A stretch of DNA of 40,044 nt from Acidobacteriaceae bacterium. GTDB taxonomy: Bacteria > Acidobacteriota > Terriglobia > Terriglobales > Acidobacteriaceae. The stretch is from NCBI GenBank assembly GCA_025462925.1, contig JAOAPL010000300.1, positions 1 to 40,044 on the forward strand, given 5' to 3'. The notes beneath the pieces were generated by a model, which searched no databases, had not been told where the DNA came from, and worked only from the letters and a program-made list of their open reading frames with translations. The position numbers were made by a program, and so were the translations under genes. Positions within the stretch are counted from its first letter, which is position 1, and every line of letters begins with the position of its first letter. Positions 16,256 to 18,798 of the stretch are shown here, piece after piece.

Positions 16256-16783
16256 ATGTCATCAAGCGTACAGCAGGCAGTTTTAAACGGTTTCGCAACG
16301 CATGCCACAGCTTCCAGCACTCTACCCCTGGATACATACAAGGCACTATTCGAAGAGAACCGCCACAAGATCTACTCCATCGCTTTTTGGATGACCGACA
16401 ACGAACTCACCGCGGAAGATATCTCTTCCACGGTGTTCACCCGAACCTTTAGCCGCAATGCCGCTTCTCCGGAGGCGTTCATCGCAAGTCTCGATGCCAA
16501 TCTGATCGCCGCATTGCGCGAACTGATGCCCATCGGGACGCCTACTCTGAACACTCCCATTACCGCTTCAACGCGAGTATTCGGCAACACCAAACGCGTC
16601 CATCTGGAACGTGCCGTCATTGCATTGCCGGCCACCGAGCGAATGGCTTTCCTGCTGCATGATGTGGAAAGTTATGATCATCCGCGCGTCGCCCGCATGT
16701 TGGGGATCACGGAAGAAGAATCACACAATGCGGTTTTTCAGGCGCGCATTTTGATCCGCGAACTCGTTTCGCAGATGCTCTGA
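16256..16783 (+). CDS. ECF-type RNA polymerase sigma factor, sigma-70 family
   Basis: The 175-aa protein contains a region 2 (YKALFEENRHKIYSIAFWMTD, then AEDISSTVFTRTF) and a region 4 helix-turn-helix (ALPATERMAFLLHDVESYDHPRVARMLGITEEES). Together they fit the two-domain ECF layout. The linker is short and region 2 is somewhat degenerate compared with well-known ECFs. AAGGA lies eight bases before ATG 16256. It directs RNA polymerase to stress promoters. No anti-sigma factor gene is adjacent, since the neighbours are an M13 peptidase and a disordered protein. Control may be by other means. A strong terminator follows. Confidence 0.83.
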   Translation: MSSSVQQAVLNGFATHATASSTLPLDTYKALFEENRHKIYSIAFWMTDNELTAEDISSTVFTRTFSRNAASPEAFIASLDANLIAALRELMPIGTPTLNTPITASTRVFGNTKRVHLERAVIALPATERMAFLLHDVESYDHPRVARMLGITEEESHNAVFQARILIRELVSQML

Positions 16784-16860: not shown

Positions 16861-16968
16861 GTCATCCTGAGCGCCGTCTTTAGAGTTGTCATCCTGAGCT
16901 AGATTGTCATCCAGAGCACCCTAGTTGAGATATCATCCAGAGCGCCTTCTTTCTGGCGCGAAGGATCT
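16861..16968. repeat. Cluster of four GTCATCC(T/A)GAGC repeats
   Basis: GTCATCCTGAGC occurs at 16861 and 16888, and the variants GTCATCCAGAGC and ATCATCCAGAGC at 16906 and 16932. The last copy continues with GCGCC TTCTTTCT GGCGC and GAAGGATCT, the most complete unit. It occupies the gap between the ECF sigma terminator and the disordered-protein gene. The form GTCATCCTGAGC...GAAGGATCT resembles a dispersed intergenic family recalled from Acidobacteriota, not verified here. Confidence 0.8.
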
Positions 16969-17015: not shown

Positions 17016-17474
17016 CTACGCCGCCTCATCCGGTTTCTTCTTTTCTACCTCCTCAAACACCTCCGGATCCACATCCAGCGTTCCGCGTCCGCTCGGTTCT
17101 CCTACTTCGCCGGCGCTGTCCATCGTTGGATTCGGCGGCAGCTCTTTTTCGACGTGCTCCCATTCGCCGCTCGCGCTTTCGGTGGAATCAGTCGGCGCGG
17201 ACGGATTGATCTGTCCCGTGCGGTTTTCTGGAGTCTCACTCCTCACTCTCGGGGACTTACCGCCAGGGCCGGCAGTCGCGGGATGTTGTCCTGTCGGGCC
17301 AACTCCGCTGGGCTGGTTGTGATGAGCGTCTGATCGAGTCTCGCCCCTCGGCGCGTCGCCAGCCGTGCCATCCGCCTGGCTCTCGCTGCCGTGATCTTCA
17401 GGAGGTCTCTTCTTATCGCGATCGGGAAATGTCTTCGGGGAACTACCGTGCTTGGGACTAGGATTTTCTGCCAT
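17016..17474 (-). CDS. Disordered hydrophilic protein, 152 aa
   Basis: The protein is rich in Pro, Gly, Glu, Asp, Ser and His (MAENPSPKHGSSPKTFPDRD..., SGVGPTGQHPATAGPGGKSP, GEWEHVEKELPPNP) with no hydrophobic core or signal peptide, so it is likely intrinsically disordered. It is treated as real because AGGAG lies seven bases before the ATG and the frame is long. It is divergently transcribed from the antiporter at 17593. A hydrophilin-like stress role is possible but not shown. The N-terminus begins MAE, and the C-terminus is charged (EVFEEVEKKKPDEAA). Confidence 0.65.
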   Translation of the reverse strand: MAENPSPKHGSSPKTFPDRDKKRPPEDHGSESQADGTAGDAPRGETRSDAHHNQPSGVGPTGQHPATAGPGGKSPRVRSETPENRTGQINPSAPTDSTESASGEWEHVEKELPPNPTMDSAGEVGEPSGRGTLDVDPEVFEEVEKKKPDEAA

Positions 17475-17478
17475 TTTT

Positions 17479-17502
17479 CAACTCCTCTAGGTTCAGGAGT
17501 TG
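17479..17502 (-). promoter_or_regulatory. Hairpin covering the ribosome binding site of the 152-aa protein
   Basis: In the minus-strand leader CAACTCCT GAACCTAG AGGAGTTG forms a perfect 8-bp stem whose 3' arm contains the AGGAG ribosome binding site, followed by AAAA and the ATG at 17474. When folded, the site would be closed, so translation may respond to temperature, an RNA or a protein. The effect is inferred from base pairing only. Confidence 0.5.
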
Positions 17503-17592
17503 GATGGCAACGCTGGCAGCCCTTGCCGCCCACTATTTGGGCCCCGCCGTTGCGGACGGTTCCTAGCTTATGATTTACCTCAGGAAACCCTT

Positions 17593-18798
17593 ATGGCAGA
17601 AGTCCAAATCTTCTACCGCGACCTGGCATACGTATTTACCGCTGCGGTGCTGGGCGGGGTCGTGGCCCGGATGCTACGTCAGCCGACCATCCTCGGTTAT
17701 GTGGTCGCCGGAATTCTGATTGGCCCATTCACTCCCGGCCCCACTGTTTCCGACGTTCATGCTTTAGAAGTAATCGCGGAATTCGGCGTAATACTGCTGA
17801 TGTATTCGATAGGGATTGAGTTCTCTTTGCGCGATCTCTTCACTGTGAAGTGGGTTGCGGTTCTGGGCGGACCAGTAGGCATCTTGCTTTGCATAGTAAT
17901 GGGGATTCTCGCTGCGCCACTTCTCGGCTCGAGTATGGCGCAGGGCGCAACCGTTGGCGCCATCATCAGCGTTGCCAGCACCATGGTGTTATCCCGATTG
18001 CTCATGGACCGCGGCGAATTGAAAACTGAGCACGGCAAAATAATGATTGGGATAACGTTGGTCGAAGATGTCGCCGTCGTTGTCCTGACCATCCTTCTGC
18101 CTGCGTTCAGCGTGCTTACCGGAGAGCGCTTTCTAAGCTTAGGAATGTTGCTAGGCAAGGCTGCATTGATTCTGGCACCAGTGCTGTTTCTCGCGACGAA
18201 GCTGGTGCCTCCACTTATGGCTCGCGTAGCGCGCACGGGGAGCCAGGAACTTTTCGTGCTTGTCGCAGTGGCGCTCGGTTTCGCCACCGCCGCTTTAACG
18301 CAGGCCGTGGGTCTATCCCTGGCTCTGGGCGCCTTTCTCGCGGGGATGATCGTTAGCGGCTCTGACGTTGCGCATCAAACTCTTTCACAATTGCTGCCAT
18401 TGCGCGATGTCTTCGTCGCCCTGTTCTTCGTAACCGTAGGTGCATTAATCAATCCGCGGGTGCTGCTCTCCGACCCTTTGCTGCTCGGAATAATCGTCTT
18501 TTTGATTGTCGCGGGAAAGTTCTTGATATGGACCGCAATAGTCTGGCTGTTCAGGTTCCCATTCGGGACAGCACTGAGGGTGGCAGTAGGTCTCACCCAG
18601 ATCGGCGAGTTCTCGTTTGTACTGCTGCAAGTGGCACGAAACTCGCGGCTCGTCTCTGACGCGGTTTACAACGCCACATTGACTGCATCTCTGGTTTCAA
18701 TCTTATTGAATGCGTTCTTGATGAAGTTCGCGTCTCGATGGTTCACGGAACGCGGAGTCGTTCCCGCTAGGGCCAGCGTTCCTGAAACGCAGGCTTGA
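17593..18798 (+). CDS. CPA2-family cation:proton antiporter (KefB/NapA-like)
   Basis: This 401-aa membrane protein has about twelve hydrophobic helices. Family marks are ARMLRQPTILGYVVAGILIGP, EFGVILLMYSIGIEFSLRDL, TLVEDVAVVVLTILLP and LSLALGAFLAGMIVSGSD; the ED in LVEDVAV is the likely ion site. It exchanges Na+ or K+ for H+. No TrkA-N/RCK domain follows the membrane part, so it is shorter than KefB and lacks that ligand gating. ATG 17593 is chosen over 17500 because the transporter homology begins there and AGGA lies upstream. A terminator follows at 18954. Confidence 0.93.
   Translation: MAEVQIFYRDLAYVFTAAVLGGVVARMLRQPTILGYVVAGILIGPFTPGPTVSDVHALEVIAEFGVILLMYSIGIEFSLRDLFTVKWVAVLGGPVGILLCIVMGILAAPLLGSSMAQGATVGAIISVASTMVLSRLLMDRGELKTEHGKIMIGITLVEDVAVVVLTILLPAFSVLTGERFLSLGMLLGKAALILAPVLFLATKLVPPLMARVARTGSQELFVLVAVALGFATAALTQAVGLSLALGAFLAGMIVSGSDVAHQTLSQLLPLRDVFVALFFVTVGALINPRVLLSDPLLLGIIVFLIVAGKFLIWTAIVWLFRFPFGTALRVAVGLTQIGEFSFVLLQVARNSRLVSDAVYNATLTASLVSILLNAFLMKFASRWFTERGVVPARASVPETQA

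Follow-up and report, generated by a model that had tools for sequence, protein, structure and literature searches.

Within the window considered here (the whole 40,044-nucleotide stretch of acidobacterial DNA that was analyzed), a gene encoding a 152-aa protein predicted to be disordered is probably under transcriptional control exerted by an ECF-type promoter of sequence GGGCGGC-N18-CATCCAAC, with the mRNA beginning in the loop of a hairpin that covers the ribosome-binding site (RBS) and being translated without the help of an RNA switch. A probability of roughly two in three is assigned to this reading as a whole, including the assignment of the two-box motif as a promoter. The palindrome, its conservation among relatives, the two-box motif and the overlap of that motif with the 5' arm of the palindrome can all be read directly from the DNA. 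From these we infer the promoter nature of the motif, the position of the transcription start, the assignment of the sigma factor to the ECF class and any effect on read-through transcripts. The features concerned are as follows.

16256-16783, plus strand: gene for an ECF-like sigma factor, oriented convergently to the 152-aa gene (Pfam Sigma70_r4_2, E value 2.4e-9)
17016-17474, minus strand: 152-aa proline/glycine/serine-rich hydrophilic protein, predicted disordered
17469-17509, minus strand: whole fold-back region, including an outer TGCCAT/ATGGCA pairing over the start codon (minimum-energy folds)
17479-17502, minus strand: perfect 8-bp hairpin with an 8-base loop, CAACTCCT-GAACCTAG-AGGAGTTG
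17502-17495, 17494-17487 and 17486-17479, minus strand: 5' arm, loop and RBS-containing 3' arm of the hairpin, respectively
17482-17486, minus strand: RBS, AGGAG, 7 nt from the ATG and within the 3' arm of the hairpin
17492-17493, minus strand: putative start of transcription, within the hairpin loop (from the geometry of leaderless homologs and the coordinates)
17499-17506, minus strand: -10-like box, CATCCAAC (family consensus NNTCC(A/T)A(C/T); motif search and scan)
17525-17531, minus strand: -35-like box, GGGCGGC (family consensus (A/G)GGCAAC; motif search and scan)
17593-18798, plus strand: divergent gene of the Na+/H+ exchanger family

Examination of the minus strand from 17502 to 17472, which reads CAACTCCT-GAACCTAG-AGGAGTTG-AAAA-ATG, bears out the hairpin described in the initial annotation, namely, eight pairs enclosing an eight-base loop, with AGGAG being paired and four A residues separating the structure from the ATG of the 152-codon ORF (17474 to 17016). 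The outer pairing that takes in the start codon was absent from that annotation. The presence of some 8-bp hairpin in the window is unsurprising, given how nine perfect hairpins of at least 8 bp with loops of 3-10 bases were found across the 40 kb, as compared to 3-8 in five mononucleotide shuffles of the same DNA; the positioning of one on an RBS is surprising. In 609 control genes with an RBS, drawn from two relatives, a perfect stem over the RBS of at least 6 bp was found in seven instances and one of at least 8 bp in two. Among the homologs of the 152-aa gene, RBS stems of at least 6 bp were found in 7 of 50, all five members of the genus included (Fisher p ~2e-5, a value made to look too strong by the kinship of the homologs). 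Counted by lineage, these stems represent three cases, namely, two clades of the genus and one species pair of another genus.

Conservation of the hairpin was considered in five genomes of the Candidatus Angelobacter group of the Acidobacteriaceae, the group in which the window's own genome is placed (G000, G090, G023, G145, and G125). The RBS is paired in all five. All eight stem pairs are kept in G000 and G090, while the stem comprises six pairs in G023 (ACTCCT/AGGAGT) and takes the form TCCCTC/GAGGGA in G145 and G125. An outer GCCATC/GATGGC pairing is found in G090 and G023 and is absent from G145 and G125. Counting from the end of the -10-like box, two compensatory changes distinguish the two clades, with the +1 pair changing from T-A to C-G and the -1 pair from C-G to T-A. 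The covariation that the initial annotation had proposed seeking in relatives is thus present; both changes correspond to a single lineage split, such that the evidence is suggestive rather than strong. The two pairs suggest that pairing is of some value in itself, something that a pure promoter reading leaves unexplained. Elsewhere, in a species pair of another genus (L070 and L085), the -10 box CTCCTA pairs with TAGGAG. Palindromes of at least 5 bp containing the -10 box occur 10 times among the homologs, as compared to a shuffle mean of 3.2, with related sequences being counted. Most homologs, mainly in other genera, do not present such a hairpin.

When the upstream regions of some 50 homologs from across the family were subjected to a two-block motif search, they were seen to share (A/G)GGCAAC-N17/18-NNTCC(A/T)A(C/T), where the first box can also be written (A/G)GGCA(A/T)C. 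The spacing between the boxes is 17 or 18 in 50 of 52 homolog upstream sequences. The log-likelihood of the motif is 230, versus 51-61 in eight dinucleotide shuffles, a score for which shared ancestry accounts in part; the boxes nonetheless persist between genera with different surroundings. In the window, the site (17531 to 17499, minus strand; 14.3 bits) is the best minus-strand match in the 40 kb. The last four bases of its -10-like box correspond to the outer half of the hairpin 5' arm, which accordingly consists of half of that box together with the discriminator. The -35-like boxes of the genus, GGGCGGC and AGACCGC, deviate from the GGCAAC consensus. Comparison of the window locus with that of G023 revealed conservation to begin near the -35-like box, despite the upstream neighbor being a different gene.

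The motif is also found before unrelated genes in the genus, with the boxes being conserved and the spacer having diverged. This is the case for a gene encoding a 103-112-aa protein in four species, as well as for a COX1-like gene and a molybdopterin-oxidoreductase-like gene in two species each, the latter two having been named by eye. The 103-112-aa protein (L175, L176, L177, and L184) is a small protein of the membrane type and, in L177, the -10 box lies inside another palindrome, TCTAACG-atgta-CGTTAGA. Within the window itself, at 10249-10160 on the minus strand, a weaker copy of the motif, GAGCAGC-N17-CATCTAAG, precedes a gene, with GAGCAGC-N17-CATCCAAT occupying the same place before the apparent ortholog in G023.

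Motif statistics with gene context were obtained for G023 and G249, over 376 kb and 800 kb, respectively. In G023, a score above 14 was reached upstream of genes five times, versus a mean of 0.5 and a maximum of 2 for 60 permutations; in G249, permuted motifs were exceeded only weakly. Genus-wide, the strict pattern yielded nine matches versus 11 for the reversed control, i.e., no enrichment, so the putative regulon would be small or the motif degenerate. Eight of the nine strict matches sit 5-51 nt before a same-strand candidate start codon, and these fall into three gene groups. The search of five genomes from other genera for exact matches to the family consensus returned 13, versus seven for reversed controls, a small excess in which the only clearly intergenic matches are the sites of the homologs themselves; a large regulon was not seen by this measure. 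Considered together, the fixed spacing, the conservation across diverged spacers and the occurrence before several genes identify the two-box motif as a putative ECF-type promoter feature. Promoters recognized by ECF sigma factors carry GGAAC-type -35 boxes, as in the EcfG class. The family motif resembles these in its AAC-containing -35-like box, fixed spacing and short -10-like box; the pairing of a GGCAAC box with a TCCWAY box corresponded to no named ECF group in this analysis.

As to where transcription would begin, five homologs of one genus (L018, L020, L062, L063, and L069) present a -10-like box ending exactly 6 nt before the ATG, a geometry that fits a leaderless start some 7 nt after the box. 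Applied to the window, this spacing would place the start at 17492-17493, yielding a leader of 18-19 nt. With such a start lying inside the loop, the main mRNA would not include the 5' arm, so that the hairpin could not form. Folding models show little pairing of the RBS in the predicted short transcript, whereas in a longer one that carries the 5' arm, both the RBS and the ATG are base-paired. In that longer transcript, the predicted probability of the RBS being unpaired is at most 0.05 at 65°C and at most 0.13 at 75°C, pointing to a stem stability far beyond what a thermometer would allow. A scan of both strands from 17470 to 17700 for sigma-70-like promoters turned up none.

In the mechanism proposed, the 5' arm of the hairpin would serve as promoter DNA, comprising the last bases of the -10-like box plus the discriminator, while the 3' arm would supply the RBS. 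RNA polymerase engaged at this promoter would begin at about 17492-17493, such that the normal mRNA would start just 5' of the RBS, form no hairpin and be translated with no switch being involved. The 5' arm would be present only in rarer transcripts initiated farther upstream, in which the RBS and the ATG would be locked. The hairpin would represent at most a block on the translation of read-through transcripts, or else a by-product. Each of these two possibilities is compatible with transcriptional control by the ECF-type promoter, such that the odds given to them do not compete with those of the main reading.

The by-product possibility, according to which the -10-like box and the discriminator complement the RBS by chance and the pairing serves no function, is given somewhat less than even odds. 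The TCC of the -10 box and the GGA of the RBS are complementary by consensus, and the stem is mostly missing from homologs in other genera. Chance alone sits less comfortably with the frequency of RBS stems among homologs relative to the control genes and with the two compensatory pairs found within the genus.

A block on read-through, in which the hairpin was selected to prevent translation of transcripts begun upstream, would be an addition to promoter control and is possible, if doubtful. The geometry is exactly as such a block would demand, with the -10 box in the 5' arm, the predicted start in the loop and the RBS in the 3' arm; pairing is conserved in both clades of the genus through C-G/T-A and T-A/C-G exchanges; and both the CTCCTA/TAGGAG pairing of the other genus and the excess of palindromes containing the -10 box over shuffles point the same way. 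In G145, moreover, a same-strand gene, judged by eye to be glmU-like, lies some 100 bp upstream. Yet among the loci inspected, this is the only one so arranged; in the window, G090 and G023 (the G023 neighbor having been named by eye as an RsgA-like GTPase gene), the upstream neighbor is divergent and offers no obvious source of read-through. In addition, the -10 consensus TCCTA is inherently complementary to TAGGA, such that some pairing comes for free, the counts are inflated by related species, and the hairpin is wanting in most homologs. We lean slightly toward pairing with no essential function.

The arrangement is of a known kind. In phage T4 gene e and in the fold-back inhibition of the IS10/Tn10 transposase, the RBS is hidden in long transcripts and free when the start lies within the hairpin. 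The 152-aa gene is similar in that its RBS is predicted to be free only in transcripts starting inside the hairpin, although the former are phage or mobile genes with measured transcripts and unrelated sequences. Complementary sequences likewise lie around the promoter and RBS of Bacillus subtilis sigG, where a large hairpin was proposed to form only in read-through RNA, transcripts initiated at the sigG promoter itself being unable to adopt it (PMC5942855), a precedent for a read-through block. In the case of sigG, however, both promoter and start have been established, and read-through comes from an operon located upstream on the same strand, whereas here the start is predicted and the window neighbor is divergent.

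The initial annotation had instead proposed that the mRNA carries the hairpin, with heat or a protein opening it for translation. As in RNA thermometers of the ROSE and fourU types, the hairpin covers a Shine-Dalgarno site beside the start codon. Pairing would take in the RBS and ATG in the longer transcript, and conservation of the stem is accompanied by compensatory changes. Nonetheless, the 5' arm overlaps the promoter-like motif, and in the model the RBS remains closed at 65°C and almost entirely so at 75°C. The fourU element is described as four consecutive U residues paired with the Shine-Dalgarno site (PMC10586365); no fourU run is found here, the arm opposite the RBS being CUCCU within a perfect, very stable stem that is probably absent from the main mRNA. 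A search of Rfam returned no leader or riboswitch match; the sole hit, located elsewhere, was attributable to chance, at 13.6 bits versus a gathering score of 160. An RNA thermometer was rejected on the basis of predicted stem stability and the promoter overlap, while a protein-gated switch, likewise not supported, would require transcription to begin farther upstream, where the scan for sigma-70-like promoters came up empty. As such, although the hairpin is real and conserved, its interpretation as a switch is probably wrong, and this alternative is considered quite improbable. Marginally less probable still is a DNA operator, with a dimeric regulator binding the inverted repeat over the -10 box and start site; the palindrome is centered near the predicted start, a usual operator position, but the repeat differs between clades (CAACTCCT/AGGAGTTG versus TCCCTC/GAGGGA) while pairing persists, and an operator would preserve sequence rather than pairing.

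Returning to transcriptional control, the neighboring ECF-like gene, the start of which was set from a conserved MSSSVQQ, adjoins the gene for the disordered protein, in convergent orientation, in all five members of the genus (tblastn to L003, L004, L005, and L006). Region 4 of its product is well matched, while region 2 is weak. That this is the factor acting at the promoter is offered as a lead only. No convincing copy of the motif precedes the ECF-like gene, the score in the window being 5.1 bits; a 12.4-bit copy before the G090 gene only abuts a doubtful start. Short TCATCC(T/A)GAGC repeats were seen by eye between the ECF-like and 152-aa genes, at 16862-16965. In another genus, a gene encoding a SpoIIE-domain phosphatase lies downstream of the homolog (L013, 1959-3107, plus strand; E value 1.4e-43); phosphatases of this type are often found in stress-sigma control.

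The 152-aa protein itself elicited no match in Pfam or NCBIfam. Its nearest named record is a protein from a Candidatus Angelobacter MAG, with which it shares 93% identity. Short disordered homologs are distributed across the Acidobacteriaceae, with a core like EPSGPxGDNPATAGPGxTxVxSxTPENxxGxINPSAP. The homologs in G145 and G125 (L005, 1471-2235, and L006, 1468-2256) bear a long C-terminal extension rich in glutamine, glycine, serine and asparagine, missing from other species, that brings them to 255-263 aa in total. Hydrophilins are defined by a glycine content above 6% and strong hydrophilicity. With 11.2% glycine, 13.8% proline, no cysteine and a GRAVY score of -1.39, the protein agrees with the earlier description of a disordered, hydrophilin-like product. 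A single-sequence structure model, with a mean pLDDT of 57.5 and one 7-residue helix, is likewise consistent with disorder. A role in stress is plausible, given the putative ECF-type promoter motif and the conserved neighboring ECF-like sigma gene. Activation of the gene through a stress-type sigma factor is considered more likely than activation through an RNA thermometer.

A broader reading, considered speculative and on the whole improbable, is that these observations reflect an undescribed acidobacterial ECF-type regulon for disordered hydrophilin-like proteins, in which one genus has folded promoter and RBS together such that the gene would be double-locked, at transcription and at translation. 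Were this so, only RNA begun by that sigma factor would be translatable. For genome scans that seek hairpins over the RBS, the present locus serves as a warning that a hairpin whose first arm holds the promoter would be visible in the DNA yet absent from the mRNA. Finally, the Acidobacteriaceae are abundant soil bacteria and, if confirmed, the two-box motif would open to experiment both an alternative-sigma regulon and a family of small disordered proteins, as yet undescribed, in this group.
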